64,000 nucleotides of DNA from Terriglobia bacterium. GTDB lineage: Bacteria; Acidobacteriota; UBA6911. The notes under the pieces were generated by a model. The model made no database searches and was not told where the DNA came from. It was given only the letters and a program-made list of their open reading frames with translations. The stretch's first letter is position 1. Each line of letters begins with the position of its first letter. Positions 5,891 through 59,792 of this stretch are shown here, piece by piece. A program made the translations under genes and the position numbers. The stretch is from NCBI GenBank assembly GCA_020072565.1, contig JAIQGI010000004.1, positions 62,001 through 126,000 on the forward strand, read 5' to 3'.

Positions 5891-6324
5891 TGAGTCTGAT
5901 GACCGCAATGGAAGTAGGCGCTTCGGGCCTCTCAGCCCAGCGCAAGCGGCTCGAGGTACTGGTGAGCAACCTGGTGAACGCAAGCACCACCGGCCCCGCG
6001 GGAACGGAACCTTACCGGCGCAAGGATGTGGTCTTCACCGCGACCCCGCCGTCTTCCACTTTCGGCGGCGCGCTCGACGATGCCATGGGAGCTGTGAACG
6101 GAGTGGAGGTGACGGCGGTCGTCACCGATCAATCCGCGCCCATTCGCCGTTATGAGCCCGGCCATCCTCACGCGGACAAGGATGGCTATGTCACCTATCC
6201 CAATATCAACCCCATGGAAGAGCTGGTGAACATGCTCTCCGCCACACGTTCCTATGAAGCCAACCTCCAGGCGGTGAACACCACCAAGGATATGGCTCTG
6301 AAGACGCTGGATATCATCCGGTAA
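5890..6324 (+). CDS. flgC: Flagellar basal-body rod protein FlgC
   Basis: This 144-residue proximal rod protein starts with the rod-protein helix GASGLSAQRKRLEVLVSNLVNAST and ends with the conserved region MEELVNMLSATRSYEANLQAVNTTKDM. Both halves are typical of FlgC, and the length is normal. It overlaps flgB by one base (TGATG) and is followed after 10 nt by fliE, the standard flgB-flgC-fliE order. One deviation: the usual N-terminal SNIAN motif reads SNLVN here. It should polymerise above FlgB in the periplasmic rod. Confidence 0.95.
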   Translation: MSLMTAMEVGASGLSAQRKRLEVLVSNLVNASTTGPAGTEPYRRKDVVFTATPPSSTFGGALDDAMGAVNGVEVTAVVTDQSAPIRRYEPGHPHADKDGYVTYPNINPMEELVNMLSATRSYEANLQAVNTTKDMALKTLDIIR

Positions 6325-6334
6325 GAGGATTTTC

Positions 6335-6643
6335 ATGGCACAAAACCTGATTGGTCAAATTAATCCCAACCTGCAGTTGCCCGAGATCACCCGGCCGCGT
6401 GCCCCCGGCAAGACCGAGGAGGGTGCGAGCTTTGGTGACATGCTGAAGAGCGCCATCTCGACGGCGAACGAGTTGCAGAAGCAGTCCGATGTCGAAATTC
6501 AGAAGCTCATCACCGGCGAAACCCAGGACCTGCACACCACCATGATCGCCGTGCAGAAGGCCGACATCTCGTTCCAGATGATGATGCAGGTGCGCAACAA
6601 GATCGTGCAGGCATACCAGGAAATCATGCGCATGCAGGTCTAG
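6335..6643 (+). CDS. fliE: Flagellar hook-basal body complex protein FliE
   Basis: This 102-residue protein is the junction between the MS ring and the rod. The FliE core is clear: FGDMLKSAISTANELQKQSDVE in the middle, followed by HTTMIAVQKADISFQMMMQVRNKIVQAYQEIMRMQV, which matches the conserved C-terminus including the terminal MRMxV. It lies between flgC and fliF as in most flagellar operons and should be one of the first substrates of the export gate. Confidence 0.95.
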   Translation: MAQNLIGQINPNLQLPEITRPRAPGKTEEGASFGDMLKSAISTANELQKQSDVEIQKLITGETQDLHTTMIAVQKADISFQMMMQVRNKIVQAYQEIMRMQV

Positions 6644-6706
6644 CGCCTGGAACCGCGGTGGTGAGATTTTGCGAATGAAACTTCATTGCCCAGTGGAGAT
6701 TTCGAA

Positions 6707-40176: not shown

Positions 40177-42051
40177 TCAAAATGCTCCCCGTCCTGTGCA
40201 ACCCTTCACGGCTTCATTCAGCTTGCGAAGTGCATCATCGATCGTGGTACGCGCTCGAGCGACGGACTGGAAGTACTCAAGATAGGCTCCCCGGAGCTCT
40301 GAGATGCCGGCGGGACCGTGCAATCGGACTCCCAGCGCAGCGCGTCGTCTCAGGAACTGTGTATTGCCAAGCTGGTTGAAGGAGTCGATGATCGGTGCGA
40401 GCCGGCTCAAAGTATGCAGCGATTCATTGACCCGCTCCAACCGGGCGAGATCCTCTTGCCCTAAGGCCGGATTCCCGGCAGTGCACAGTTGAATTCCCTC
40501 TGCCAGGACGGCCTCCAACTGCCCAGACTCCTTTTCCAGCGCTGCCAGAATGACTGTGCCCCTAATGCTGCCGCTGCTCGCCGCTTTGGAGAACACACGT
40601 CGGATCCGGTCGCGCAAGTCGTGCTGTTTATCGCCGCACCGGTGCAAGGCTTCATGAAGACTCATGACCGCCAGATTGTCTCTGAGCATTCCTCCCTCAG
40701 TGGCGTTGATGAAATTGACTTCCGGATGTTTTTCGATCTCGGAACCGATCCAGTTCCAGTAGGCCATGAGCTTGTCGGTGGTTTCCACCGGCCGACCAAA
40801 GAGATCTTCCGTTACCACGATTCTGTTCGAGGCCCGGAGTTCTGCCCAGCGGCGCTGCCATGCATCCGGGCTGCCGACCTCATGGAACCACTGTTCCTCC
40901 CAGTGCAGGCCCGAACAGTAGGTGCGCCCGTCGCTGAAGGCGAGGTCCTGACCGACAAAAATGACAGGGTCACATCCCAACAGCAGGGCGAAATCCAGGC
41001 ACATGGTTGCAACGGAACCCCAGGCGCGCAGAGTCCCCTTGGAGGCAAGAAGCTCGGAAAGAGTCCGGAGCGACGAATTTTCGAACCTGCAGAGAATTGT
41101 ACGGCCGTTGAACGATGCAAGGGTTTCAGGGTACGCGGTGGCTTCGGCGACCAGATAGGTCTCCCGTGCAACGGCGTCCTTGAGATGGAGGTAGTTCTCA
41201 TAACCGGGATCGCCGCTTAAGACGAAATGGGGTTCGATGCCGGATGCGAGCAGCGGCTTCAGTGCCGTGTCGGCTGCCAGAACCAACACCTGGTTCTGGA
41301 ATGGGCGCAGTTCGTGAATGTTCCGATCCAGGGAGGGTCCTGCTGCGACCAGCACGGCGGGAACACCCGCGAACCTGCGTGCAAAAGCGCTGACGCCGGG
41401 CGACGAAGAAGCGCGGGAGAAGTTGGTTATGAAGTTGTCCAGGAACACGGGCGCTTTTCCCACGAGCGTGTTGATGTCGGTGAAGATCTGTAGTGTCTGG
41501 CTCTTTATGATTTCAGCAGCAGCTTTGAACAGGCCCGGTTTAAGTACGAGCGAAGGTGGATGACTGATGAATACGCTCTTGCGCGCCTGCACGGGATCAA
41601 AAAACTGTTTCCATTGCTGTGCCAGCTCATTTCCCCCTGCAGGCCAGGCGAAGTGGATGTTCGGCAGCGCCAGCCATGATGTCAGGTCACGCGCCGCAAG
41701 TGCCGCGAGCAGGATCTCCAGATCCGATTCGACCACGAAGATGTGCGCGGTCTCTGGCGCCACTCTTTCGAGCAGGGCATCCAGCCCGTATCCGAGCCCA
41801 AAACCCAGGAAGACAAAATAGTCCGCTTCAGCAAGGTCAAGGTCCTTCAGGGACTGACGTGCTTCCGGCATCGGATCATAACGGCTGTGGAGCGGCACGG
41901 GATCCCCGGCATCGCGGCGATAAAAAGCGGTGGGCGGGCCTTTGCGTGACGGGGAAAGCTGCAGGCGCGTGAGGTCGGTTCCGCTCAGGAGCCGGGCGAG
42001 TTCCGGCTGTCGGGGTGCGAGTGCTGCGAGATTGAGTTCGAGGCAATCCAA
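40177..42051 (-). CDS. Maf-type flagellin glycosyltransferase (DUF115, MptE-like)
   Basis: Motility accessory factors transfer nonulosonic acids to flagellin Ser/Thr. The 624-residue product has an N-terminal helical part, a Rossmann-like GLGYGLDALLERV segment, and the DUF115/MAF core: FAGVPAVLVAAGPSLDRNIHELR, VLAADTALKPLLASGIEPHFVLSGDP, then GCDPVIFVGQDLAFSDGRTYCSG. The likely start is TTG 42051; the frame runs open to 42351, but that part overlaps the FliT-like gene in another frame. It is the last gene behind flaG-fliD-fliS and fits with the sugar operon at 46388-53761. Confidence 0.88.
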   Translation of the reverse strand: MDCLELNLAALAPRQPELARLLSGTDLTRLQLSPSRKGPPTAFYRRDAGDPVPLHSRYDPMPEARQSLKDLDLAEADYFVFLGFGLGYGLDALLERVAPETAHIFVVESDLEILLAALAARDLTSWLALPNIHFAWPAGGNELAQQWKQFFDPVQARKSVFISHPPSLVLKPGLFKAAAEIIKSQTLQIFTDINTLVGKAPVFLDNFITNFSRASSSPGVSAFARRFAGVPAVLVAAGPSLDRNIHELRPFQNQVLVLAADTALKPLLASGIEPHFVLSGDPGYENYLHLKDAVARETYLVAEATAYPETLASFNGRTILCRFENSSLRTLSELLASKGTLRAWGSVATMCLDFALLLGCDPVIFVGQDLAFSDGRTYCSGLHWEEQWFHEVGSPDAWQRRWAELRASNRIVVTEDLFGRPVETTDKLMAYWNWIGSEIEKHPEVNFINATEGGMLRDNLAVMSLHEALHRCGDKQHDLRDRIRRVFSKAASSGSIRGTVILAALEKESGQLEAVLAEGIQLCTAGNPALGQEDLARLERVNESLHTLSRLAPIIDSFNQLGNTQFLRRRAALGVRLHGPAGISELRGAYLEYFQSVARARTTIDDALRKLNEAVKGCTGRGAF

Positions 42052-42113
42052 AATGCTACCCGTTAGGCGAAGGGAGCTTTTTGCTCCAGGGGAAATCTGT
42101 GCCGCCAGGGCGG

Positions 42114-42539
42114 CTACTGACGGGCATCTATAAACTTCGGCCGATTCTCCCTGTATCCTCGCACGCTCTGCAGGAACTGCTCTCCAAGCTTGAGCTCCTG
42201 GAGGGATTCCCGGGCCGTGCGCTGCAATGTGCCAAAGCCGGCGATATTTCTCTCGATCAGTTGCAGCAGTTGCCGGGCCCGCTCCGAGAGGTCGGATGCG
42301 CGGGATGCAACCTCGCTTCGGTTCCTGTTGGACGGCTTGGAGCTTTGCCAATCACGGGCGAGATGAACGAATCGCCGGCTGGCCTCCTCGGCACGCTGTA
42401 CCAGATCGGTCATCAGGCGCTCGCGGTCGGGATCCGCCGGCCGGTCTGTCTCCAGGTTACGATACTGTTGGTTGAGCCGGCATTCCAGTGCATCGTAGAG
42501 TCTTTCCAGGCCCTGCAATTCCGAGTCGATGGGATTCAT
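42114..42539 (-). CDS. FliT-like helical protein, putative export chaperone
   Basis: The 141-residue product is charged and all helical (IDSELQGLERLYDALECRLNQQYRNLE at the N-terminus, LQELKLGEQFLQSVRGYRENRPKFIDARQ at the C-terminus). It lies directly after fliS (2 nt between), the place of fliT in many species, and the C-terminal LGEQFLQSVRGYRENRP is in the style of FliT/FlgN family ends. Primary sequence is too divergent to call firmly. ATG 42539 is the start; an upstream extension would cover fliS in another frame. Confidence 0.6.
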   Translation of the reverse strand: MNPIDSELQGLERLYDALECRLNQQYRNLETDRPADPDRERLMTDLVQRAEEASRRFVHLARDWQSSKPSNRNRSEVASRASDLSERARQLLQLIERNIAGFGTLQRTARESLQELKLGEQFLQSVRGYRENRPKFIDARQ

Positions 42540-45091: not shown

Positions 45092-45922
45092 CTATTTGAA
45101 CAGCGCCAACACAGACTGGCTGCTTGCGTTAGCCTGTGACAGGGCGGCGATGCCGGACTGCGCGAGGATCTGATACTTGGTCAGATTGGCGATTTCCTCC
45201 GCCATGTTGGCATCACGAATGGTGGATTCAGCCGCAGTGGTATTCTGTGACTGGCTCTGGAGCACCGCCACAGCGGACTGCAGCCGGTTCATGGAGGCAC
45301 CCAGGCCGGCCCGGTTGGTCGAAATGCCACCCAGAGCGGTCTTGAGATCAGTCATGGCAGACTGAGCATGAGCTTGGGTATCGAGAGCAGTGCTGGTGAG
45401 ATCCTGGCCACCCACGCTGGTGGCACTGACGGCGCCGACAGTCACCGCGATGGAGCTGGAGTTGTGAATGTCGCCGACGAAAATGTTCAGGCTGACACCG
45501 GCAGAGGTGAAGAGCGCCACGCCATTGAAGTTGGTCTGGGTTGCAATGCGTGTGATTTCACTCTTGATCGAGGTCAGCTCGGAGTTGAGAGCGGTTCTCC
45601 CTGCGGTATCGACCGTATCGGTAGCCGCTTCTTCCGCGAGCGAGAAGCCGCGGGTCAACAGGTTGGTAATTTCCTGCAGAGCGCCGTCGGCGATCTGGGC
45701 GACGGATATGCCGTCATTGGCGTTGCGGATCGCCTGATCCAGCGCGCGCACATTCGCGCGCAGGCTGTCCGCGATGCCCAGGCCGGCAGCATCGTCCGCA
45801 CCGGAATTGATGCGCTTGCCCGTGGAAAGGCGGAGCAATGTCCGGTTCAGGCTTACGTTGTTGAGGTTGAGAGAGTTCTGAGCGTTCAGCCCAGCGATGT
45901 TATTAAGGATGCTGAAAGACAT
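45092..45922 (-). CDS. fliC: Flagellin FliC
   Basis: FliC is the filament subunit. The 276-residue product consists nearly only of the D0/D1 domains: N-terminal SFSILNNIAGLNAQNSLNLNNVSLNRTLLRLSTGKRINSGADDAAGLGIADSLR and C-terminal MNRLQSAVAVLQSQSQNTTAAESTIRDANMAEEIANLTKYQILAQSGIAALSQANASSQSVLALFK. The short central part (ITRIATQTNFNGVALFTSAG and a Thr/Ser-rich stretch) leaves little D2/D3, so exposed Ser/Thr glycosylation sites would be few. It is monocistronic: sigma28 promoter upstream, terminator downstream. Its leader has a hairpin around the ribosome site (45927-45944). Confidence 0.96.
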   Translation of the reverse strand: MSFSILNNIAGLNAQNSLNLNNVSLNRTLLRLSTGKRINSGADDAAGLGIADSLRANVRALDQAIRNANDGISVAQIADGALQEITNLLTRGFSLAEEAATDTVDTAGRTALNSELTSIKSEITRIATQTNFNGVALFTSAGVSLNIFVGDIHNSSSIAVTVGAVSATSVGGQDLTSTALDTQAHAQSAMTDLKTALGGISTNRAGLGASMNRLQSAVAVLQSQSQNTTAAESTIRDANMAEEIANLTKYQILAQSGIAALSQANASSQSVLALFK

Positions 45923-45926
45923 TTTT

Positions 45927-45944
45927 GAATTCCTCCTTGAATTC
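45927..45944 (-). promoter_or_regulatory. Ribosome-site hairpin of fliC, candidate CsrA site
   Basis: On the minus strand GAATTC, a 6-nt loop AAGGAG and GAATTC again form a 6-bp stem with the Shine-Dalgarno in the loop, ending 4 nt before the fliC ATG. GGA in a hexaloop at the ribosome site is the classical CsrA target. A second ANGGA motif (ACGGA) lies upstream at 45963-45959. Confidence 0.65.
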
Positions 45945-46048
45945 GTTTTGGTTTGATATCCGTACCATTTCCCAGACAAGGCCCTCACAGACCCAGCCGG
46001 CCATCGGCCTGCTGGGCTGGAATTCCAGTCCGGATGCTATAGTGCGAC

Positions 46049-46387: not shown

Positions 46388-47011
46388 ATGACACGTCTGT
46401 ATATCGACAAACAAGAAGTTGCGCCACTCCCTCCGGATATGATTTCGTTGGAACAAGTCCTCAAGCTTGTGGAAACCACGCACCTGTCTCCGAACATGAT
46501 CATTCGGCAAGTCCAAATTGACGGGCTTCCCCTATTCCAGGACGACCGGGCGGCCAGCCTGCCGGAACGCATCGACGACCGGGAGAAGATTGAGATTACT
46601 ACCTCGACACTGCGGGAAGTGGCACTCGATTCAGTCCGGGAAGCAATCACCTATCTTGAGCGCGTAGAGACGGCAACTGCCTCATTGGCTTCGAGTTTTC
46701 GTGCTCATTCCGGGCCGCCGGACTTTGAGAGTTTAAAGCAGTTTTATGAGGGGTTCTATTGGGTCAACCTGCTTCTGGACCGGTTGGAACAATCGTTTCA
46801 AATTTCATTTGAAACTCTGAGTGTTAGCGGCGGCAACGCGCGGGAGCACCACTTCAAGCTGGCCTCGCTGCTCAAGGATGTCATCGAGGCACATGAGAAG
46901 AGAGATTTCGGTCTGGTGGCAGATCTATTGGAGTATGAGGTCACGCCTCTGATTCCGACCTGCAAGGAGGTCTTCGCGTCTGTGCGCGCCCGGATTCTTG
47001 CTGGAACCTAG
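46388..47011 (+). CDS. Unknown 207-residue protein heading the glycan operon
   Basis: The first 65 residues have alternating hydrophobic pattern (TRLYIDKQEVAPL, then NMIIRQVQIDGLPL) that could be a small beta-grasp-like domain. The rest is helical (REVALDSVREAITYLERVETATASLASSFR, LLKDVIEAHEKRDFGLVADLLEYEVTPL). I do not recognise a family. No signal peptide or membrane segment is seen, so it is likely cytoplasmic. ATG 46388 has AAGGAAA upstream. It has its own sigma54 promoter, and the pseG-like gene follows 21 nt downstream, so it is expressed with hook-basal body genes. Confidence 0.8.
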   Translation: MTRLYIDKQEVAPLPPDMISLEQVLKLVETTHLSPNMIIRQVQIDGLPLFQDDRAASLPERIDDREKIEITTSTLREVALDSVREAITYLERVETATASLASSFRAHSGPPDFESLKQFYEGFYWVNLLLDRLEQSFQISFETLSVSGGNAREHHFKLASLLKDVIEAHEKRDFGLVADLLEYEVTPLIPTCKEVFASVRARILAGT

Positions 47012-47032
47012 GGGCAGTCAAAGGTACGTCAG

Positions 47033-48109
47033 ATGAACAATTCGAGCGCCAAAAGATTGACGCTTTCGTACGAAAAGAGGTCTCGCAAAACTCTGTTGGT
47101 AAGGACTGCCGCCGGGCCCACAATCGGCTTCGGTCATCTGAGAAGGGCATTGATCCTTGCCCGCCGGCTGCGCGGCGCCGTGCGGCCTATGTTTCTGCTT
47201 GATCCCGACGATCGCTGGTCCCAGGCGCACGTTAGACATTGTGGTTTTGACTACCGTCATTTTGATCCGCGCAGACCCTGGCCTGCGGCTGAGCCTGCGG
47301 CTGCTGTTCTCATCGATACACGGAAAAGGGTGGGCTTGCGCCGTCTGATCGCGGCCGCACGCCTGCGAGGGATTCCGGTCGCGAGCATCCACGATCTAGG
47401 GCTGGCGCCGGTTGCGTCCGATGTCGTTTTCGACGGCAGCATCCTGCCTGCAAAAGACAGGTTCCCACGGGACGACACCACCTTTTTCACCGGGACGGGC
47501 TATCTGGTCCTGGCGGATGGCTGCGAGCGCTTTCACCGAAACGACAAGCGGATCCGTCCCAGAATCCGCAAGGTAGTAGTCAACCTGGGAGGAGGAGACG
47601 GCCGCAGGCTTTTCGGGAGAGTTCTCCGAGGCCTGCGCTCCACCAACGCCAAGCTGGAGGTTGTCGGCCTTCCTGGATTTTGCTCATGGGGGCAGGGGGA
47701 GTTGACGCGCACCCGATGGAACCCTGTCCGCTTTCGCTGGCTCTCCCCGCAAGAGGATGCATTGAGGATCATGTTCGATGCGGATCTGGTTATTTCTGCG
47801 GGAGGCCTGGCTGCTTATGAAGCCCTGTGCCTGGGTGCTCCCCTGTGCGCTCTCTCCTGCGATCGCCACCAGGCAAGCACTGTCGAGGCTTTGGCCCGTG
47901 CCGGGGCCTGCCTGGACTTGGGTCGCGGGACGCTCCTGAAGAACTCTGACCTGATTTCCCGATTCCAGGAACTGAATGGGCATCCAGATCTCAGGCATCA
48001 ACTCTCGGCGCGGGGGCATGCTCTGGTCGACGGCGGCGGCACGCGCCGCGTAGCCCGAATCCTGCATGCCATGATGAAGGGCAGATCCCACTTGATGACG
48101 AATAGCTGA
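47033..48109 (+). CDS. PseG-like nucleotide-sugar hydrolase
   Basis: PseG removes UDP from a 2,4-diacetamido-2,4,6-trideoxy sugar before condensation to pseudaminic acid. The 358-residue product has the GT-B signature of that family: GFGHLRRALILARRL near residue 32, a first-domain strand VASIHDLG, and the second-domain LVISAGGLAAYEALCLGAPLCALS, which is the PseG-like nucleotide-binding part. About 30 extra N-terminal residues are present. It may hydrolyse a different NDP-sugar, since the adjacent nucleotidyltransferase could make a non-UDP donor. Confidence 0.78.
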   Translation: MNNSSAKRLTLSYEKRSRKTLLVRTAAGPTIGFGHLRRALILARRLRGAVRPMFLLDPDDRWSQAHVRHCGFDYRHFDPRRPWPAAEPAAAVLIDTRKRVGLRRLIAAARLRGIPVASIHDLGLAPVASDVVFDGSILPAKDRFPRDDTTFFTGTGYLVLADGCERFHRNDKRIRPRIRKVVVNLGGGDGRRLFGRVLRGLRSTNAKLEVVGLPGFCSWGQGELTRTRWNPVRFRWLSPQEDALRIMFDADLVISAGGLAAYEALCLGAPLCALSCDRHQASTVEALARAGACLDLGRGTLLKNSDLISRFQELNGHPDLRHQLSARGHALVDGGGTRRVARILHAMMKGRSHLMTNS

Positions 48110-48119
48110 CGGAGGACGA

Positions 48120-48869
48120 ATGACAACGGAGACAGCTACGAGCCTGTTTTTCAATGGCCGATCGTCCAGGCCAGGGGGTCCGATGCTGCGGGCTCTTGTT
48201 TTCGACCTGGACGACACGCTCTATTGCGAGCGCGATTTCCTTGCCAGCGGTTTCCGTGCCGTGGCGGAACACCTGTCGGCAACCTGTGGCCGGCCTCGCG
48301 ATGAAATCCATCAGATGATGATGGCCACGCTCGCTCGCGAGGGAAGGCGCAGCGTCATGCCGGCGGTGCTGGCACGTTTTCCGGACTCGGGATTTCAGGT
48401 GGCTGATCTGGTCAGCATCTACCGTTCGCATACTCCCCAGATCCGGTTGTTCACCGGGTATGACGGACTGCTGAAGGAGCTTCGCGCCCGCTATCGGCTT
48501 GGCATCGTGACCGACGGCGCTCCTGATGTGCAAAAAGCGAAGTGTGCGGCGCTCGGCCTGGAGGGGGCGGTGGACAGCATTATCTATACGTGGGAATACG
48601 GCCTGGAGAAAGAAAAGCCGCATCCGTTCCCCTTCCGTCTGATGTTGAGGTGCTTGCAGGCGCCCCCGGATGAGGCTCTTTTCATCGGGGACAGCCTCGA
48701 GAAGGATTGCAGGGGCGCGCGCGGCGTGGGGATGAAGTGCGTGCGCGTGCAGCAGCCACCTATCATATGGGGTGCCGAGAGCGGAGAGGAGGCGGACTTT
48801 GTCATCGAATCGCTGCTCCAACTCCCACTCGTGCTGAGACAGCTCGAGGGTCCAGATGAACCAGCATGA
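48120..48869 (+). CDS. HAD-superfamily hydrolase
   Basis: The 249-residue product has all HAD motifs: FDLDDTLY (motif I, Asp nucleophile, about residue 26-33), GIVTDGA (motif II), the Lys in EKEKPHPFPF (motif III) and FIGDSLEKDCRGARGVGMK (motif IV). The cap between motifs I and II is helical (type C1). It overlaps the neuB-like gene by 14 nt. In this operon it is likely a sugar phosphatase, perhaps acting on a phosphorylated intermediate. ATG 48120 follows GGAGG. Substrate cannot be read from sequence. Confidence 0.85.
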   Translation: MTTETATSLFFNGRSSRPGGPMLRALVFDLDDTLYCERDFLASGFRAVAEHLSATCGRPRDEIHQMMMATLAREGRRSVMPAVLARFPDSGFQVADLVSIYRSHTPQIRLFTGYDGLLKELRARYRLGIVTDGAPDVQKAKCAALGLEGAVDSIIYTWEYGLEKEKPHPFPFRLMLRCLQAPPDEALFIGDSLEKDCRGARGVGMKCVRVQQPPIIWGAESGEEADFVIESLLQLPLVLRQLEGPDEPA

Positions 48870-49980
48870 GTTCATGTTGGGAGGGAAGCCGATCGGTGCT
48901 TCCTCCAGGGTTCTTGTGATTGCCGAGATCGGCATCAACCATGATGGCAGCCTGGAGCAGGCGCTGAGGCTTATCGATGCTGCGGCTGGCTGTGGCGCCG
49001 ACGCGGTGAAGTTCCAGACTTTCCGGGCCGAGCGGCTGATGGTGGAATCCCGCGGCCGGTTTGCTCAGCAGGGCGAATGCGGTGAGTCGGCATATGAGAT
49101 GTTCAGGCGATTGGAGCTCTCCTGGGAGGGTCACGAGAGATTGAAGGCGCGAGCCGACAGCCGGGGTGTGCTCTTTCTCTCAACCCCCTTTGACGAGGAC
49201 AGTGCAGATTTTCTGGACGCTCTCGGCGTCCCCGCGTTCAAAATTGCGTCGTCCGACCTGACCCACCTGCCGCTGCTGCGTCACCTGGCCCGCAAACGCA
49301 AACCATTGCTGCTTTCGACAGGCATGTCCTACCTGCACGAGGTGGAGGAGGCCGTCTGCACGCTGCAATCGTGCGGGGCGCCGGACATTGCGCTGCTACA
49401 CTGCGTCTCGACTTACCCCGCTCCGCCGGACACGCTGAATCTGAGGACCATACAGACGCTGCACGAGCACTTCCATCTGCCCGCGGGATTTTCCGACCAT
49501 AGCGAGGGCATCTTTTTCTCCCTGCTTGCTGCAGCTCTGGGCGCGAGGGTGTTGGAGAAGCACTTCACCCTGGACCGGACGGGCGCGGGTCCCGATCACA
49601 AGGTCAGCATCGAGCCGAGGGAACTCCGCGAACTGGTCGCCCGTCTCGCAGTTGTGGATGCGAGCCTGGGGACAGGGCGCAAGCATCCCACCAAAGAGGA
49701 AGAGCAGAGCCGGATGCTGAGCCGGCGCAGCATCGTGGCTGCGACGGATATCGCCATTCATCAAACCGTTCAGCCTTGGATGCTCACGTGCAAACGCCCT
49801 GCCGGGGGCATCGACCCGCGTGAGGTTGACCGCGTGACGGGCATGCAGGCGCGCCGCAAAATCGCCAAAGACAGTATCCTGTACTGGGAGGATCTGGTAC
49901 CGGCGCACTGCGCGAAAGCGGCGGACAGGGAAACGGCATCGACGATGCCTCAGGGACAGCCAAGCGCCTCCACACCATGA
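48856..49980 (+). CDS. NeuB/PseI/LegI-family nonulosonic acid synthase
   Basis: This enzyme condenses a six-carbon sugar with phosphoenolpyruvate to a nine-carbon sialic-acid-like sugar. The 374-residue product has the TIM-barrel part with AEIGINHDGSL, AVKFQTF, STPFDEDSADFLDALGVPAFKIASSDL, LLLSTGMS, LLHCVSTYPAP and GFSDHSEG, followed by an antifreeze-like SAF domain (RRSIVAATDIAIHQTVQ, MLTCKRPAGGI). All are normal for the family. Whether it makes pseudaminate, legionaminate or another form is not decidable. Confidence 0.92.
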   Translation: MNQHEFMLGGKPIGASSRVLVIAEIGINHDGSLEQALRLIDAAAGCGADAVKFQTFRAERLMVESRGRFAQQGECGESAYEMFRRLELSWEGHERLKARADSRGVLFLSTPFDEDSADFLDALGVPAFKIASSDLTHLPLLRHLARKRKPLLLSTGMSYLHEVEEAVCTLQSCGAPDIALLHCVSTYPAPPDTLNLRTIQTLHEHFHLPAGFSDHSEGIFFSLLAAALGARVLEKHFTLDRTGAGPDHKVSIEPRELRELVARLAVVDASLGTGRKHPTKEEEQSRMLSRRSIVAATDIAIHQTVQPWMLTCKRPAGGIDPREVDRVTGMQARRKIAKDSILYWEDLVPAHCAKAADRETASTMPQGQPSASTP

Positions 49981-49991
49981 CAGGAGACAAC

Positions 49992-51065
49992 ATGCGCGAA
50001 ATCAACATTCTAATCACCGCGGCCAGCCGGCGCGTACCGCTGATCCAGGGTTTCGTGCAGGCGTTGAGGCGACTGGGCGTACGCGGCAATGTGGTCACCT
50101 CAGACATGAATGCGCTCAGCCCCGCCCTCTATTTCAGCGATCGCCATTACCTCGTCCCGCTTACTACCGACAAACAGTATCTACCTCTCATCAGGTCGAT
50201 CTGCTTCAAGGAACGGATCCACCTCCTCATCCCCACGATCGACGACGAGCTGCCGCTGTTCGGCGCTCATGCCGGCTCCTTTCTGGAGATGGGCGTACGC
50301 GTGGCGGTTTCAGGCCAAGAGACCGGAACCATCTGCAATGACAAGCTGCGGACGGTCCAGTTTCTGGCAGAGAAGGGCATCGCCACACCGCGCACATGGC
50401 TTCCCCACGAGCTGGACTTCGGGAGCCTCAGCTATCCGCTGTTTCTGAAGCCGCGGCAGGGCCGGGGCAGCGTAGGCGCCCACCCCATCAACAATGAAAA
50501 GGAACTGCGCTTCTTCTCGAGCTATGTGGCGGACCCGGTGATCCAGGAATACCTGCCCGGCCGCGAGTTCACGATCGACGTGCTGGCGGATTTCAATGGC
50601 GCCATCATCAGCGCCGTGCCCCGGGAGAGGCTGGTAGTTCGTTCCGGCGTAACCGACCGCGGGCAGACCTGGAATCACCCGGCGTTGATCGATCTGGGTG
50701 TTCGTGTGGCCGAGGCTCTGCAGATACGTGGCCCGGCCAACATACAACTCAAGTGGTACGCAGATCGGGGTACCGTCTTTGAAGTGAATCCGCGTTTCTC
50801 CGGAGGGATCAACCTCACCATTGCTGCCGGAGCCGACTTTCCCGCCTGGCTGATTGAAATGCGCCTCGGGCGCAGGGTGCGGCCTGCTTTGGGCAAGTTC
50901 ACCGACAGCCTGTTGATGACCTGTTATGAAACCGCGCTCTTCCTCTCCTCTAACGTGGCGGCAGTGGGCGGCATGAAGCAGGCCGATGCGCAGGTTCCTC
51001 CTGCCGGTCGCGGCCGGACGGCGCGCAGCAACGTCGTCGCTCAAGGCCCGTGGATGGAAGCATAG
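49992..51065 (+). CDS. ATP-grasp ligase of the glycan operon
   Basis: The 357-residue product has a pre-ATP-grasp Rossmann part (ILITAASRRVPLIQGFVQAL) and the ATP-grasp fold of the CarB/PylC type: CNDKLRTVQFLAEKGIATPRTWLP, PLFLKPRQGRGSVGAHPINNEKEL, VIQEYLPGREFTIDVLAD and the metal-binding FEVNPRFSGGINLTIAAGADF. Such enzymes join a carboxylate to an amine with ATP. No such step exists in the standard pseudaminate or legionaminate pathways, so it may add an amino acid or acyl group to the sugar. ATG 49992 has AGGAGA upstream; ATG 49977 overlaps neuB by 4 nt. Confidence 0.85.
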   Translation: MREINILITAASRRVPLIQGFVQALRRLGVRGNVVTSDMNALSPALYFSDRHYLVPLTTDKQYLPLIRSICFKERIHLLIPTIDDELPLFGAHAGSFLEMGVRVAVSGQETGTICNDKLRTVQFLAEKGIATPRTWLPHELDFGSLSYPLFLKPRQGRGSVGAHPINNEKELRFFSSYVADPVIQEYLPGREFTIDVLADFNGAIISAVPRERLVVRSGVTDRGQTWNHPALIDLGVRVAEALQIRGPANIQLKWYADRGTVFEVNPRFSGGINLTIAAGADFPAWLIEMRLGRRVRPALGKFTDSLLMTCYETALFLSSNVAAVGGMKQADAQVPPAGRGRTARSNVVAQGPWMEA

Positions 51066-51117
51066 AGGCGGCAACGGAAGCTGCGGAAACTCGACTTGCA
51101 GATGGAGGAGGACAGGC

Positions 51118-51831
51118 ATGAAGGCGGTGATACTCGCCGGAGGGAAGGGCGCCCGGCTCGCCCCTTACACGACTATCTTCCCCAAGCCGCTGGTGCCGAT
51201 TGGGGAGCGGCCGATTTTGGAGATTATCGTCCGCCAACTTGTGCGGCAGGGAATCTGTGACATTGTCTTGTCTGTCGGACACCTGGGCGAGCTGATCGAA
51301 GCGTACTTCCAGAATGGACACCGCAGCATCCCGGGGCTGAACTTGAGTTACGCACGCGAATCCCGGCCCCTTGGGACCGCAGGTCCACTCGCCCGCATCG
51401 CCGGACTCAATGACACGTTCCTGGTGATGAACGGGGACGTGCTCACCACGCTGGACTACCGGTCGCTGTGTGACTTCCACCGGTCGTCGGGGGCCGCACT
51501 CACCCTTGCCATGCATCGCAAGGAGGTGCGCATCGATCTGGGAGTGCTGGAGACCAACGAGAGCAACGAACTGGTCGCGTATCGCGAGAAGCCGCTTTAC
51601 ACCTTTGATGTCAGCATGGGTGTCTACGTCTATGAACCGCGTGTGCTCGGCTACCTCACGAAAGATGAATACCTCGACTTCCCGGATCTGGTGCTCCGGC
51701 TCCTGGGCTGCGGAGAAAAAGTGGTCGGGTTCCATTCCGAGGATTTCTGGTTCGATATCGGTCGCCGGGAGGATTATGAGCTTGCCCAGCAAGAATTTGA
51801 GGAGCGAGCCGACGCCTTCGCCCTCGCCTGA
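51118..51831 (+). CDS. Sugar-1-phosphate nucleotidyltransferase
   Basis: The 237-residue product is a RmlA/GlmU-N-like enzyme: AVILAGGKGARLAPYTTIFPKPLVPIG (nucleotide binding), FLVMNGDVLTTLDY (metal Asp) and DFWFDIGRREDYELAQQ near the C-terminus. In legionaminic acid synthesis of Campylobacter a comparable enzyme (PtmE) makes a GDP-sugar. ATG 51118 has GGAGGA 8 nt upstream. It overlaps the next gene, or ends just before it, depending on the start chosen there. Confidence 0.9.
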   Translation: MKAVILAGGKGARLAPYTTIFPKPLVPIGERPILEIIVRQLVRQGICDIVLSVGHLGELIEAYFQNGHRSIPGLNLSYARESRPLGTAGPLARIAGLNDTFLVMNGDVLTTLDYRSLCDFHRSSGAALTLAMHRKEVRIDLGVLETNESNELVAYREKPLYTFDVSMGVYVYEPRVLGYLTKDEYLDFPDLVLRLLGCGEKVVGFHSEDFWFDIGRREDYELAQQEFEERADAFALA

Positions 51832-52960
51832 GTGGCGCGTGCCCCTCTGTGCGCCCAGCTTTGCGGAGACGGAAGTCCGGGAAGCAGCTGCGGTGCTGCG
51901 CTCAGGATGGTGGACCTACGGACCGGTTGCGCGCAGCCTGGAGAGGGAGTTTGCCGATTTCATCGGCGTGTCACACGCCATTGCGGTCTCCAGCGGCACC
52001 GCGGCACTCCATCTTGCGTTTGCCGCCCTCGGGCTCGAGCGGGGCGATGAGGTTCTCACGCCTTCCTTGAACTTTGTGGCGGCCGCCAACTGCCTGTGGC
52101 ACGCAGGCGGCGTTCCGTGCTTCGTGGACGTGGATTCGCCCGAGCAGCCGTTGACTTCCCCCGAGAATCTATCGCGCGCAATTACTCCTCGCACCCGGGG
52201 CATCTGCGTGATGCACTACGGCGGCTACCCGTGCTCCATGGATGCTGTGATGAGCCTGGCACGGCGTCACGGTCTCTGGGTGGTGGAAGATGCGGCCCAT
52301 GCTCCCGGGGCAAGCTGGCGCGATACCCGCTGCGGTGCTTGGGGGGACGTGGGCTGCTTCAGTTTTTTTGGAAACAAGAATCTCACCTGTGGTGAGGGGG
52401 GGATGGTAACAACCGCAAGCGACCGGATGGCACAAAGGATCAAAGCGCTCCGCTCGCACGGCATGAGCTCTCTGACCTGGGATCGCCACCTCGGGCACCA
52501 GTTTTCCTATGACGTGTCGGAAGCGGGTTTCAACTTTCGCATGGACGATTTGCGCGCTGCGATTCTCAGGGTGCAACTGTCGGCGCTGCCAGAGCTGAAC
52601 CGCCGCAGGGAAATGCGTGTCGGGTGGTACCGTGAGCTGTTGGAGCAGGACTCGCGCTGGGTCATCCCCTTCACGAGCCACCCGGGAAAATCGTCCCATC
52701 ATCTGTTCACCATTGTGCTGGCCGAGGGCGTGGAACGCGCTCGAGTCATGGAAAGCCTCAGAGCCGGCGGAATTCAATCGAGCATTCACTATCCTCCCGT
52801 GCACCAGTTCAGCTTCTATCGCAAGCTTTCATTGTCCCGATCCGATTTGAGAGTTACCGAATCGCTGGGCCGGCGGCTCCTGAGCCTGCCGCTATATCCG
52901 GATATGACCAGGGAACAAGTCGAATGGGTCGTCGGGAGCCTGCGCGCGGCGGTAGGCTAG
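51782..52960 (+). CDS. DegT/DnrJ/EryC1 aminotransferase
   Basis: This PLP enzyme adds an amino group to a keto-sugar (PseC/LegC step). The 392-residue product has the family start VPLCAPSFAETEVREAAAVLRSGWWTYGP, the SSGTAALHLAFAAL motif, WVVEDAAHAPGA, and the PLP Lys in FFGNKNLTCGEGGM. The C-terminal part (SIHYPPVHQFSFY, LSLPLYPDMTREQVEWV) is standard. TTG 51782 has GGGAGG 9 nt upstream and overlaps the preceding gene by 50 nt; GTG 51839 would avoid overlap but lacks a clear ribosome site. Confidence 0.9.
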   Translation: MPSKNLRSEPTPSPSPEWRVPLCAPSFAETEVREAAAVLRSGWWTYGPVARSLEREFADFIGVSHAIAVSSGTAALHLAFAALGLERGDEVLTPSLNFVAAANCLWHAGGVPCFVDVDSPEQPLTSPENLSRAITPRTRGICVMHYGGYPCSMDAVMSLARRHGLWVVEDAAHAPGASWRDTRCGAWGDVGCFSFFGNKNLTCGEGGMVTTASDRMAQRIKALRSHGMSSLTWDRHLGHQFSYDVSEAGFNFRMDDLRAAILRVQLSALPELNRRREMRVGWYRELLEQDSRWVIPFTSHPGKSSHHLFTIVLAEGVERARVMESLRAGGIQSSIHYPPVHQFSFYRKLSLSRSDLRVTESLGRRLLSLPLYPDMTREQVEWVVGSLRAAVG

Positions 52961-53068
52961 GCTGAACCAAGGGGGACGGAATCATTCAACTTTTGATCTT
53001 GGATTGGGGATTTGAAGTCAAGCACGACCCCGCACTCCAGACTCAAAATCAAAAACCCAGAGTATCCT

Positions 53069-53761
53069 ATGACGCTCACTCTCGGCTTTCTTCAGGCTCG
53101 CATGGGCAGTATGCGTTTGCCCGGCAAAGTGCTGTTTCACATTGCAGGCAAATCCATCATGGAACGTGCGATCGAGAGGTTGCGCGCTGCCCGCTCGCTC
53201 GACGGCGTGGTGGTTCTCACCACGAACCGCGATGAAGACGAGGTTGTGGCTGAGGAAGCACACCGGCTGGGAGTGGAAAGCTATCGCGGGCCCGGTTTCG
53301 ACGTCCTGGCCCGGTTCCGGCAGGCTGCCGGCATTTTCCTTCCGGATGTCATCGTGCGCGCGACGTCAGACAACCCGCTGATCGACATCGGCTCGGTGAA
53401 CCGCATCGTCCGGATGCTTGTTGAGGAAGGTCTCGACTATTGCATGGAGAGGACCTTGCCGGTTGGTGCCGCGACCGAAGCCATCACGCGTCCCGCTCTC
53501 GAAGAAGTGGACCGGCTCGGTTGCATGCCCCATCACCGCGAGCATGTCACGACCTATGTCAAAGAGCATCTCGATCTCTTTCGGACGGCATTCCCGGACC
53601 CACCGGAGGCGTTGAGGCTACCGGATCTGCGCATTACTGTCGACACGCCGGCCGACTTCGTTTTCGTGGAAAGGCTCATCCGCGCCATTCCCGAAGGCGG
53701 CTCCCCGATTCCTCTGGAAACGTACATAATAGAGCTTACCGCCGGGATTACTGCGCGCTGA
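53069..53761 (+). CDS. SpsF/CMP-sugar cytidylyltransferase-like protein
   Basis: The 230-residue product has GFLQARMGSMRLPGKVL near the start, the family's nucleotide-binding loop, DVIVRATSDNPLIDI and DLRITVDTPADFVFVERLI. It belongs to the KdsB/SpsF/NeuA-like family and should activate the nonulosonic acid with CTP (PseF/LegF role, by context). ATG 53069 is the start; a possible upstream extension to 53012 runs through AT-rich non-conserved DNA. It is the last gene of the glycan operon. Confidence 0.85.
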   Translation: MTLTLGFLQARMGSMRLPGKVLFHIAGKSIMERAIERLRAARSLDGVVVLTTNRDEDEVVAEEAHRLGVESYRGPGFDVLARFRQAAGIFLPDVIVRATSDNPLIDIGSVNRIVRMLVEEGLDYCMERTLPVGAATEAITRPALEEVDRLGCMPHHREHVTTYVKEHLDLFRTAFPDPPEALRLPDLRITVDTPADFVFVERLIRAIPEGGSPIPLETYIIELTAGITAR

Positions 53762-56187: not shown

Positions 56188-57129
56188 TCAAGTCTTGTCG
56201 CGCTGCCAGAGGTAGGCGCCGAAGTCGCGCCGGTTTTTGAACCCGAGCCGAAGGTACCATTCGTATGCACGCCGGTTCTGCCGGGTGACCGTAAGCCTGA
56301 CGGTTCGATACCCCGCGGATTTGAGCTGGTTCACTGCCTGGTGGATCAGAGCGGATCCCAGATTTCTTCCCTGATGCGCCGGATGAATTGATATCTGCGG
56401 AATCATGGCCGAGGCGGCCGAGAGACGGGATGTCAGGATGAATCCGCAAGGGGTGCCGCGGCTGTCCAGGCCCACGAAGGATGAATCGGGCTGGAATATG
56501 CCGCAGCCGGGATTTTCCACCAGGCTGCGCAGATAGGCCTCACAGTTCGCCTCGGAACCATAATCTTCGCAGATGACAGCATCGATTCCGTTCCGATAGC
56601 TCCGGTAGGCTGCTTCGGCCGCGGATAGCAGATGTCGGGGATGCCAGGGCACAATCGTCCCGCGATATTTCGGGTCGGGCCATGCGCAGGCGGCCAAGTC
56701 CAGCTCCAGGTAATGGCGGAGAAAGCACTGGAAGCCGTGCCGCGAAAAAATCGTGGTCAAGTCCAGGCCGTTAAGCGGGATGATCTGGGCCTCGATCCGG
56801 CGCAGGTTGCGCGTTTCTTTCAGGCTTTCAATCGCGCGCGAGAGGACCAGGTCGGCGGTGTGCTGAGCGTGCGGTGAGGCAACGAAGACGGTTCCGATCA
56901 TGCCTTTAGAACGGGAGATCAGGAAGTAAGTATACGCCAGCAGTTCCGTGCCGCTGATCGCGACAAAGCCCGGCAGCAGCCGCTGCTCGAGGAAACCGAA
57001 GAGGATCCGGCGGATGGGCGCGTAGTCCCAGTCGAGCTCGCGCAGCCAGGCTTGCTCTTCCTTGTTCATGAGCGCTGCCACGAGGTCGATTTCCGCCTGG
57101 CTGAGAGGCGCCAGCTCTATTTCAGACAT
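56188..57129 (-). CDS. Tandem GNAT acetyltransferase
   Basis: The 313-residue product has two GNAT-like halves. The second (about 170-313) shows the acetyl-CoA motif A, PQISIHPAHQGRNLGSALIHQAVNQL, and motif B NRRAYEWYLRLGFKNR. The first (about 1-150) has a similar fold pattern without the loop, so it may be a non-catalytic duplicate. ATG 57129 overlaps the response regulator upstream by 13 nt, so both are probably co-translated. The substrate is unknown; the operon contains no sugar gene, although the glycan operon nearby lacks its N-acetyltransferase. Confidence 0.8.
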   Translation of the reverse strand: MSEIELAPLSQAEIDLVAALMNKEEQAWLRELDWDYAPIRRILFGFLEQRLLPGFVAISGTELLAYTYFLISRSKGMIGTVFVASPHAQHTADLVLSRAIESLKETRNLRRIEAQIIPLNGLDLTTIFSRHGFQCFLRHYLELDLAACAWPDPKYRGTIVPWHPRHLLSAAEAAYRSYRNGIDAVICEDYGSEANCEAYLRSLVENPGCGIFQPDSSFVGLDSRGTPCGFILTSRLSAASAMIPQISIHPAHQGRNLGSALIHQAVNQLKSAGYRTVRLTVTRQNRRAYEWYLRLGFKNRRDFGAYLWQRDKT

Positions 57130-58223
57130 AAGACTTCGCTGGGCTCCTGGGCCCGGTGCCGGCGATTCACCAGGTCGTGAATGCTCTTCCACGTTTCGGG
57201 TGCGATGCTGAGGAACGCCTCGGTCACTTTAGGGTCAAACTGAGTGCCGCTGCAGCGTCGCACCTCTTCCCGCGCGGCTAGGAAAGACAGGGCCCTGCGG
57301 TACGGGCGGTTGCTGGTCATGGCATCCAACGTGTCCACCACGCCGAATATCCTGGCACCGAGCGGGATTTCAGTGCAGGCGAGCCCGTTCGGATAACCGG
57401 TGCCATCCCACCGCTCCTGGTGGGCCAGGACGATCTCGGCCGCCGGCGCCAGGAACCTCACGCCGCGCAGAATTTCATAGCCCACCAGCGGGTGGCGCTT
57501 CATCTGGATCCATTCGTCGGGCGTGAGCTTCCCCGGTTTCAGCAAGATGGAATCCGGAACCCCGATCTTGCCGACGTCATGCAACAGTGCGCCGCGCCCG
57601 ATGTCGATGAGGTCCTCGGTTTTCAGGCTCAGGCCCTGGGCGAGAGTAATGGCGTACTCACGTACCCGCTGGGAGTGGGCCTGGGTTTCGTGCTCCCGCG
57701 CATCCAGGGCTGCCGCCAGCGCTTCCAGTGTGAAACGGTAGCTTTCCTCGACCTCTCGGAGCGCTCCGTTCAGCTCGAAGGTGCGCTCCTGCACGAGTCG
57801 TTCCAGTTCGTGCTGGTAATAGCGATTCTCTAACATCAGGCGGTGCCGTTCCAGGGCTTTGCCCACCGCGCGCCGGACTGCGAGCAGGTCGAAGGGCTTG
57901 GTGATATAGTCGCATGCTCCCAGTTTGAGCGAGTCCACGGCCATTTTCAGATCCATCACCCCCGTGATCATGATAACGGACGTATCGGGATGGTGCTTCT
58001 TGATGGAGCGCAGCAGCTCGATTCCGGACATCCCCGGCATGCACACATCACTCATGACCAGGGAAAAGGTGTCATTCCTGATCTTGTTCAGGGCATCGAA
58101 GGCGTTGGATGCGGGGATGCACTCGCAGGAATCGTTCGAGAGGCTGCGCACAAGCAGCGAGCGGATCTCGGCCTCATCGTCGACAATGAGTACCTTGCTG
58201 GGAGGGGTGCCGTTTTCCATCAT
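57117..58223 (-). CDS. Response regulator with HD-GYP c-di-GMP phosphodiesterase domain
   Basis: The 368-residue product has a receiver (DDEAEIRSLLVRSL, phosphoacceptor Asp in VMSDVCMPGMSG, Lys in ITKPFD), a coiled linker, and an HD-GYP domain with HDVGKIGVPD, the HQERWDGTGYPNGL signature and GARIFGVVDTLDAMTSNRPYR. All metal residues seem present, so it should hydrolyse c-di-GMP. It overlaps the GNAT gene by 13 nt and lies directly after the ParA-like gene, as part of a minus-strand operon convergent with motAB. c-di-GMP lowering usually favours motility (established in other systems; not shown here). Confidence 0.92.
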   Translation of the reverse strand: MMENGTPPSKVLIVDDEAEIRSLLVRSLSNDSCECIPASNAFDALNKIRNDTFSLVMSDVCMPGMSGIELLRSIKKHHPDTSVIMITGVMDLKMAVDSLKLGACDYITKPFDLLAVRRAVGKALERHRLMLENRYYQHELERLVQERTFELNGALREVEESYRFTLEALAAALDAREHETQAHSQRVREYAITLAQGLSLKTEDLIDIGRGALLHDVGKIGVPDSILLKPGKLTPDEWIQMKRHPLVGYEILRGVRFLAPAAEIVLAHQERWDGTGYPNGLACTEIPLGARIFGVVDTLDAMTSNRPYRRALSFLAAREEVRRCSGTQFDPKVTEAFLSIAPETWKSIHDLVNRRHRAQEPSEVLCLK

Positions 58224-58228
58224 GAATA

Positions 58229-59452
58229 TCAAGCCACTGTTGGCTCAAGCCTCGTCTTCCGGCTCTCGATCTGGCGGATGACATTGAAATGCTGAGCGCG
58301 CATCAACTCAACCACCTGGCCATTGTGGTGGGGATCCCGCATTGTCGACGGGTATTCCGATTTCGTCGACAGTATAACACGGCCGTCACAGAACACCTGG
58401 GTGGTGATGCAGTTTCCGGCAGCGCCCATATCTTCTGTCTGGACGTGCAGGTCCCGGCCCATGAGTACCAGACTGTCATTCAGCCCCATGGCCGGCACGA
58501 GGGCGACACTGTCGTGCGGCTCTTCGCGCTCGGCGCCATCGCCAGGTGTGTCCCCGTCGGCCAGGTGCATCGCGACTTGCCGGACCTGATGCGCCAACTT
58601 GCAGTCGGGCTCGCCGGAATCCCGCGGGCTCATGCGCTGGGCGGCTCTGCGCGCGGCGTCGTCAAACTGGACCAGGCCGCAGAATCGCATGTCAATGCTC
58701 AGGAACTTTCTGGCCGATGACAGAATGATCTCCGCGATGCGCTGGTCCTGTTCTGAAACAGCCATGTTGACGAGCAGAAGGGGCCGCCAGGCATCCACCA
58801 TGGCTGCGATGCTTGCGGCTACTTCCGGCGCCGCCGGCCGCAGCAGGTCGAGGAAGTCCGTCATGGTTCGCGGTTTCGCGGCCCCTATGCCTTGATGCAT
58901 CTGCCGCAGTGCGGTGTCCACTTCCGCGTGGGAGCCGAACCTCTCCTGTATTCTGCGATATGTCGAATTCCTGATGAATCGGTAGGTGCATCGCATCGAA
59001 GCCGGGTCCGGCGAAGTCACCACAATCGGCTCGTGCGCCAGATTGAAGAAATCCAGTACGTTGAGGGATGCGCCGCTCCCCACGTCGATCAGGACGTAGT
59101 CCGCGTCCAGGTGCGAGAGAAGTTCGGCCATCTTGCGCTGCTCACCGGGGGCCAGGTCAGCCATGCCGAGTTCGTCACCGACGCAATTCAGGAAGCGCAT
59201 CCGTGGCTCGGGAGTCGGGATCAGTGCTTCGGGAAGAGTGGCGCGCCGCGTCAAAACGTCCCGCAGGGTCAAGCTGGGGGCCTTGATGCCGAGAGAGGCA
59301 TGCAAGTCGGGTGCCGCCAGGTTGGCATCGACGAGGATGACCGACTTGCCCGCCCGAGCCAGCGCAGCGCCCATAGCTGCAGCCAGGAAGCTCGTGCCCA
59401 CACCGCCTTTCCCGCTGCCGATAGTCCACAACCTGTTTCTGCACACACGCAT
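58229..59452 (-). CDS. ParA/CpaE-like P-loop ATPase with C-terminal extra domain
   Basis: The 407-residue product has the ParA-type deviant P-loop GSGKGGVGTSF (residues 12-22), DANLAAPDLHASLG, DYVLIDVGSGAS and VVTSPDPASMRCTYRFI. The usual KGGVGK[ST] reads KGGVGTS, as in the CpaE/TadZ group. The last 90 residues (MGRDLHVQTEDMG, ITTQVFCDGRVILSTKSEY) form a separate domain that I cannot assign to a named family. It begins an operon with the HD-GYP regulator and GNAT genes. A role in placing a cell-envelope structure is an inference. A start at 59473 would add 7 residues. Confidence 0.8.
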   Translation of the reverse strand: MRVCRNRLWTIGSGKGGVGTSFLAAAMGAALARAGKSVILVDANLAAPDLHASLGIKAPSLTLRDVLTRRATLPEALIPTPEPRMRFLNCVGDELGMADLAPGEQRKMAELLSHLDADYVLIDVGSGASLNVLDFFNLAHEPIVVTSPDPASMRCTYRFIRNSTYRRIQERFGSHAEVDTALRQMHQGIGAAKPRTMTDFLDLLRPAAPEVAASIAAMVDAWRPLLLVNMAVSEQDQRIAEIILSSARKFLSIDMRFCGLVQFDDAARRAAQRMSPRDSGEPDCKLAHQVRQVAMHLADGDTPGDGAEREEPHDSVALVPAMGLNDSLVLMGRDLHVQTEDMGAAGNCITTQVFCDGRVILSTKSEYPSTMRDPHHNGQVVELMRAQHFNVIRQIESRKTRLEPTVA

Positions 59453-59792
59453 ATCGATTCTCGCCGGGACCATGTCCCTTATCGACAGGACGCAAACCGA
59501 ACTTTATTCGCCTCCCGGCCGAACGTGCCCGCCGAAGAAGGACGTGAGGTGTGCCGGAGTCGCTCTTCTTGGCGATGCCGTTCGCCGACAGGCGCCAAAA
59601 TAGGAACTCTTGCGTGCCGACGACGCGGAGGGGTGTCGCCACGCTACCGTCCTGCCGAAGCGTCGGCTGCCTGCTGGCAGGCTACGGGGGTCACATACTC
59701 ATGCGACCTTCTGCCGGTCGCAGAGCAGCTCGACTACGATCGGTTTTCCGCGCATCCCCGCCGGGCGTCTTGCACGGGAAGAAAACGGCGGT
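59453..59792. other. Gap upstream of the ParA-like gene
   Basis: The 340 nt between the ParA-like start and the VWA gene stop hold no frame with protein-like composition. A small hairpin GCCTGC-TG-GCAGGC at 59669-59682 could end VWA transcription (minus strand) but has no T-run. A promoter for the ParA operon should be here, and I cannot place it. Confidence 0.35.

Follow-up and report, generated by a model that had tools for sequence, protein, structure and literature searches.

The 64,000-nucleotide window analysed here (Terriglobia bacterium contig JAIQGI010000004.1, positions 62,001 to 126,000) carries an operon between the flagellar genes fliC and motAB. From its enzyme families, the operon probably yields a cytidine monophosphate (CMP)-activated nonulosonic acid for transfer to flagellin by a Maf glycosyltransferase, with the N-acetylation of a 4-amino sugar replaced by ATP-dependent N-acylation. 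The genome is a 7.46-Mb draft in 135 contigs. According to open reading frame calls and family scans, all genes of the operon are on the forward strand, with neighbours either overlapping or no more than about 110 bp apart, in the order orfX, PseG-like hydrolase, HAD phosphatase, NeuB-type synthase, ATP-grasp ligase, nucleotidyltransferase, DegT-family aminotransferase and SpsF-type cytidylyltransferase, followed by motA and motB. The opposite strand carries fliC, flaG, fliD and fliS (PF02561, 114 bits), with maf behind fliS. A sequence-only reading of this DNA had placed the seven enzymes in one operon and a Maf glycosyltransferase behind fliD-fliS. Both descriptions are borne out: the seven genes occur in the order given, which relatives keep, and the Maf protein has PF01973 and Maf_flag10_N domains and is syntenic in relatives, where it is also placed between fliD and fliC.

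Within the family, the full order from orfX to motB is kept, except that locus L029 lacks the HAD gene and that some contigs stop early. Because gene order is kept in related genomes, the arrangement is not a chance one. Distant flagellar loci of the phylum have the order DegT-PseG-HAD-NeuB-ATP-grasp-cytidylyltransferase-motA-motB. Five of the distant flagellar loci (L062-L065 and L069) have a CapE/PglF-like dehydratase nearby and no nucleotidyltransferase; in L060 and L061 the nucleotidyltransferase is present and HAD is missing. Among 396 sampled genomes of the phylum, 32 have the ATP-grasp (E ≤ 1e-40) and 98 have NeuB. A tree built from 33 ATP-grasp proteins has a branch with 99/97 support that splits 20 flagellar from 10 polysaccharide sequences, with three rows that fall in no group left uncounted and with L150 as a long branch of unsure placement. 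At least one of fliC, fliD, maf and motB lies near 19 of the 20 loci that combine NeuB with this ATP-grasp, the exception being a 3.1-kb contig. This is a real, conserved flagellar nonulosonate operon.

The sequence-only reading had also noted the absence of an acetyltransferase, which does look missing. The whole genome contains a single match to the PseH-type acetyltransferase, at 22.9 bits against a cut-off of 93.1. In a profile search of the genes within loci, a PglD-type acetyltransferase was found in none of the 20 loci that combine NeuB with this ATP-grasp and in 8 of 20 NeuB loci picked from genomes without the ATP-grasp match, the two sets having been drawn by different searches and being chosen sets, not a random sample. 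The PglD profile was built from four acetyltransferases (Pfam PglD_N, Hexapep) of ATP-grasp-negative NeuB loci, and those four are among the eight. The only one of the 20 ATP-grasp-negative loci with flagellar genes (fliD, fliS and Maf) is L146, in which PseB scores over its cut-off and the ATP-grasp beside PseG and NeuB (6634-8022 of that locus, reverse strand) is of another kind, carrying an L-amino-acid-ligase C-terminal domain (LAL_C2). This ligase seems to have replaced PseH independently. L150 has a distant ATP-grasp (138 bits). Genes for PIG-L type deacetylases, which might perhaps exchange an N-acyl group, lie near ATP-grasp and DegT genes in L150 (4301-4993) and L075 (11574-12272).

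The ATP-grasp protein has the residues expected of an active enzyme, with K158, E269, N271 and R273 invariant in 26 homologues. Its best NCBIfam model is NF009405 (297 bits, cut-off 390), and the PRK12767 equivalogs are under cut-off. Since its closest match in the PDB, 2pn1 (5e-42), is named only as a carbamoylphosphate synthase large subunit, homology does not give its substrate. An AlphaFold model made from two sequences reached a predicted local distance difference test (pLDDT) score of 38.6 and was not used. The suggestion that the ATP-grasp puts on an acyl group instead of acetyl gains comparative support from the distribution of PglD, from the L146 ligase and from NeuB-free loci that have the ATP-grasp and HAD genes and lack PglD, and a swap of ATP-grasp for acetyltransferase is likely on this evidence. 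The HAD phosphatase, noted along with it as extra, reads better as a partner of the ATP-grasp than as a step of its own in nonulosonate synthesis.

A neighbourhood survey of the ATP-grasp, HAD and NeuB genes, as the earlier reading had recommended, found the HAD gene together with the ATP-grasp gene in 17 of the 20 loci, the others being L029, L060 and L061. Polysaccharide loci of three phyla have the ATP-grasp/HAD pair and no NeuB; such NeuB-free pairs include six loci of this phylum (L035 and L075-L079) and five loci on plasmids from Alphaproteobacteria and Bacillota. Because the HAD recurs with the ATP-grasp where NeuB is lacking, it belongs with the ATP-grasp rather than with NeuB. The gene order is HAD, ATP-grasp, Bac_transf, DegT and PglF-like in L077, and aminotransferase, Bac_transf, ATP-grasp and HAD in L103 (Priestia). 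No PglD is among the genes seen in these two loci (the plasmid gene table is incomplete), and by gene content they resemble bacillosamine-type pathways that lack PglD. In two plasmid polysaccharide loci, L102 and L104, a formyltransferase gene (6029-6940 and 6063-6986) lies immediately ahead of the ATP-grasp/HAD pair. HAD and NeuB could instead form a phosphorylated route, from hexose 6-phosphate through nonulosonate 9-phosphate to nonulosonate, as in the synthesis of ketodeoxynononic acid (KDN) or of animal sialic acid. The HAD protein does match N-acylneuraminate-9-phosphatases in the PDB (45 bits), but unassigned HADs score higher, the PseG, DegT and nucleotidyltransferase genes imply nucleoside diphosphate (NDP)-sugar intermediates, and the HAD gene tracks the ATP-grasp gene in NeuB-free loci while three NeuB loci lack it, so we regard this route as highly improbable.

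The dehydratase was said to be absent as well, which is correct for the operon and incorrect for the genome. The search elsewhere in the genome that had been advised found a LegB-like gene on another contig of the same genome (G000, C33:8893-9777), with 404.8 bits to TIGR04180 (below the curated cut-off of 475; runner-up 180). Its protein shares 49% identity with the LegB-like protein encoded inside the L060 operon, compared with 24-35% for the other short-chain dehydrogenases/reductases of this genome that were tested. The L060 gene (390.6 bits to TIGR04180, likewise under 475) lies between the ATP-grasp and nucleotidyltransferase genes. Across 15 genomes of the order, orthologues of the C33 gene (69-73% identity) occur in 5 of the 7 with NeuB and in none of the 8 without, a split with a chance probability of about 0.007 (hypergeometric, ignoring relatedness). 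The two NeuB-positive genomes without an orthologue, G009 and G013, are 81% and 76% complete. The dehydratase step would thus be supplied in trans by the C33 gene, for which the Bacillus subtilis sps genes, split over two loci and with the dehydratase SpsM as first enzyme, set a precedent (PMC7439481). A 640-aa PglF-like protein on C32, the first dehydratase candidate, was dropped in favour of the LegB-like gene, given the latter's match to the dehydratase encoded in the L060 operon and its co-occurrence with NeuB.

Glycosyltransferase and methyltransferase genes surround the C33 LegB-like gene, and most NeuB loci that lack this ATP-grasp are not flagellar, both of which would suit an operon sugar destined for a surface polysaccharide instead of flagellin. 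Given that all but one of the NeuB and ATP-grasp loci have flagellar genes or maf nearby, and that Maf is encoded within the same cluster here, we consider that destination very unlikely.

Several points weigh against replacement of N-acetylation in a flagellar nonulosonate pathway, besides the manner in which the loci compared for PglD were chosen. The PseG, NeuB, ATP-grasp and DegT proteins of the window score below the curated equivalog cut-offs. Several ATP-grasp-negative NeuB loci are also without a recognised acetyltransferase, the three NeuB loci without HAD indicate that HAD is not essential, and the C33 LegB-like gene, given its glycosyltransferase neighbours, may serve another glycan. 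An acetyltransferase could also act in trans, the searches having covered the PseH type genome-wide and the PglD type within loci. Just past motB there is, moreover, a GNAT gene (56188-57192, reverse strand). Thirteen of 15 related genomes have it, among them 6 of the 8 that lack NeuB, and it was set aside as the missing acetyltransferase on account of this NeuB-independent spread, which speaks against a role without excluding one. GNAT homologues also lie near fliS-fliD in distant loci.

Taken further, an acetyltransferase encoded elsewhere would make this an ordinary di-N-acetyl legionaminic or pseudaminic acid pathway, in which the ATP-grasp adds a later amide, for example on the finished nonulosonate. 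Enzymes acting in trans have a likely example here in the dehydratase, and a GNAT gene adjoins motB, but that gene is present irrespective of NeuB, and no PseH-like match in the genome exceeds the one mentioned above. Also in favour of late addition, Shewanella flagellin carries a mono-N-acetyl nonulosonate together with another, separate moiety, and its mass shifts a little less when the ATP-grasp SfmE is lost than when sfmA-D are (PMC3765264). Against late addition, the ATP-grasp/HAD pair occurs with DegT and PglF-like genes where NeuB is unseen, which argues that it can act without NeuB. On balance, we judge the di-N-acetyl pathway unlikely and favour acylation of the 4-amino sugar by the ATP-grasp ligase.

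As to the class of nonulosonate, the pseudaminate enzymes PseB, PseC, PseH, PseG and PseI all fall below their curated cut-offs, with PseB reaching at best 153.7 bits in this genome (cut-off 407.8). The hydrolysing 2-epimerase LegG is not in the operon, which has the PseG-like hydrolase at that place, whereas classic legionaminate loci such as L140 have a LegG/NeuC-type epimerase (433 bits to TIGR03568 in L140). PtmE-type enzymes make the nucleotide-sugar precursor of legionaminate, and so do LegX-type enzymes (PMC13317340). Homologues of the window's nucleotidyltransferase (61% and 46% identical) adjoin LegB-like genes in L060 and in L101, the latter being the site of a second LegB-like gene of genome G010. 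We propose that the nucleotidyltransferase fits a LegX/PtmE-type step and is not foreign to known pathways. The combination of a LegB-like dehydratase and a PseG-like hydrolase is mixed, like that of B. subtilis, which requires SpsG for legionaminate (PMC7439481), and gene content does not fix the stereochemistry.

From protein families and gene neighbourhoods, we infer the following pathway. The nucleotidyltransferase would make an NDP-N-acetylhexosamine, with guanosine diphosphate (GDP) as the nucleotide by analogy to LegX/PtmE; the LegB-like 4,6-dehydratase from C33 would convert it to a 4-keto-6-deoxy sugar, and DegT would aminate C4. The ATP-grasp ligase may then join a small carboxylic acid, either an amino acid or a hydroxy acid, to the 4-amine. 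PseG would take off the nucleotide, NeuB would add phosphoenolpyruvate, the SpsF-type enzyme would make the CMP sugar, and Maf would move the sugar onto FliC ahead of export. In the weakest step, the HAD phosphatase could cooperate with the ATP-grasp, perhaps by dephosphorylating the acyl donor or the product, as when phosphoglycerate gives a glyceramido group.

The Campylobacter jejuni CMP-legionaminate pathway (LegX/PtmE, LegB, LegC, LegH, LegG, LegI and LegF, with GDP precursors) shares with this system a nucleotidyltransferase, a LegB-like dehydratase (in trans here), a DegT aminotransferase, NeuB, a cytidylyltransferase, and Maf and flagellin genes nearby; unlike it, the present system has no LegH-type acetyltransferase that we could find and has the ATP-grasp and HAD enzymes. 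The B. subtilis sps legionaminate pathway (SpsM, SpsC, SpsD, SpsG, SpsE and SpsF) has in common a PseG-like hydrolase, an SpsE-like NeuB, an SpsF-type cytidylyltransferase and genes split over loci (PMC7439481). It differs in having the acetyltransferase SpsD, in its dehydratase SpsM, which is a PglF/CapE-type uridine diphosphate N-acetylglucosamine dehydratase and not LegB-like, and in serving the spore crust, not flagellin.

Amide-substituted nonulosonates and the use of an ATP-grasp in place of an acetyltransferase are already known, the latter from Neisseria PglB2. This ATP-grasp/phosphoglycosyltransferase gives a glyceramido group replacing acetyl, in glyceramido acetamido trideoxyhexose (GATDH; PMC11130364, PMC6959607). 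Likened by gene content, both systems have an ATP-grasp that replaces the acetyltransferase on a 4-amino sugar made by a dehydratase and an aminotransferase, although PglB2 makes a lipid-linked hexose for pilin, without NeuB. On gene content alone, PglB2-type sets (ATP-grasp and 4-amino-sugar genes, no acetyltransferase) occur in the window-type loci, L077 and L103. The pgl loci of some species are drawn with a HAD and a formyltransferase gene (PMC6959607). In Clostridioides difficile type B flagellin, a mutant of CDR20291_0245, a carbamoyl-phosphate-synthetase-like ATP-grasp gene, is without the peptidylamido extension of the glycan (PMC5207246, PMC5207245). The likeness is one of described role, an ATP-grasp modifying a flagellin glycan, and the glycan there is Fuc3N-Rha-Rha-GlcNAc, not a nonulosonate. 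In Shewanella oneidensis, the flagellin nonulosonate cluster sfmABCDE encodes a NeuB-like protein and the ATP-grasp SfmE, whose loss alters flagellin mass (PMC3765264); the gene set of this cluster is different (methyltransferase, reductase), and SfmE has 412 aa and an ATP-grasp_4 domain. Clostridium botulinum is cited as having Leg5GluNMe7Ac, an amide-substituted nonulosonate (PMC13317340). In the part of the literature searched, ATP-grasp and nonulosonic acid occurred together only in the Shewanella work (PMC3765264), and matches to nonulosonic acid with Acidobacteria concerned other subjects, judged by title.

More tentatively, and as a possibility that we would not yet call probable, flagellins of Acidobacteriota could carry an undescribed nonulosonic acid, with an amino-acyl or hydroxy-acyl (e.g., glyceramido) substituent on its 7-amino group, put on before NeuB acts by a dedicated ATP-grasp/HAD pair. 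This module would have taken the place of the N-acetyltransferase across many families of the phylum, in their flagellar operons, and would be shared with polysaccharide pathways of other phyla. If the proposed replacement of acetylation is right, ATP-dependent ligation does in a whole branch of flagellar nonulosonate operons what acetyl-CoA does in model organisms, such pathways will be marked as incomplete by annotation looking for PseH or LegH, and the ATP-grasp/HAD pair would be a portable module for N-acylation that can be assayed clearly and leaves a mass-spectrometric signature.

The genes of the operon, with maf and fliC, are listed in Table 1. The product of orfX has no Pfam or NCBIfam match, and its predicted fold (pLDDT 81.5) matches nothing in the PDB at E ≤ 0.001; the gene is kept at the same position in five relatives (174-208 bits), with weaker conservation in three distant loci. 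The PseG-like hydrolase contains the motif GFGHLRR, and its gene is syntenic among relatives. The HAD protein carries DLDDT, TDG, KPH and GD motifs. Against curated models, NeuB scores 378.7 bits to TIGR03569 (cut-off 399.7) and 295.9 bits to TIGR03586 PseI (cut-off 340.3), and its top PDB match is B. subtilis SpsE (1vli, 1.6e-61). The DegT protein scores about 316-317 bits to TIGR03588 PseC, under the cut-off of 423.5, with 8sng, an ArnB-type aminotransferase, as its top PDB match. Cytidylyltransferases at the same position in relatives match the SpsF-type protein with 269 to 143 bits. A promoter scan gave nothing exceeding chance.

Table 1. Genes of the nonulosonate operon, with maf and fliC, in coordinates of the window.
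Feature	Position	Strand	Family evidence
orfX, first operon gene (207 aa), family unnamed	46388-47011	+	
PseG-like NDP-sugar hydrolase	47033-48109	+	TIGR03590 PseG, 73 bits (below cut-off, 153.6)
HAD-IA phosphatase	48120-48869	+	PF13419, 75 bits; TIGR02253, 113.6 bits (under cut-off, 169.8)
NeuB-type nonulosonate synthase with SAF domain	48856-49980	+	PF03102, 298 bits
ATP-grasp carboxylate-amine ligase, PRK12767/PylC-like	49977-51065	+	PF15632, PF21360 and PF02655, over cut-off
Sugar-1-phosphate nucleotidyltransferase	51118-51831	+	PF00483, 114 bits
DegT-family sugar aminotransferase (GTG start)	51839-52960	+	PF01041, 374 bits
Predicted SpsF-type CMP-nonulosonate synthetase (cytidylyltransferase)	53069-53761	+	PF02348 (CTP_transf_3), 85.6 bits
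Maf flagellin glycosyltransferase	40177-42351	-	PF01973 (MptE-like), 127 bits; PF20157 (Maf_flag10_N), 29 bits; both over cut-off
fliC flagellin, presumed acceptor	45092-45988	-	PF00669, 124 bits; PF00700, 78 bits

Further along the window, a MinD-like ATPase gene (58229-59473, reverse strand) encodes a C-terminal domain of the RomY N-terminal type (NF053858, 58.5 bits, cut-off 50). At its position, relatives have only a protein of 96-118 aa that matches this C-terminal RomY-type part.

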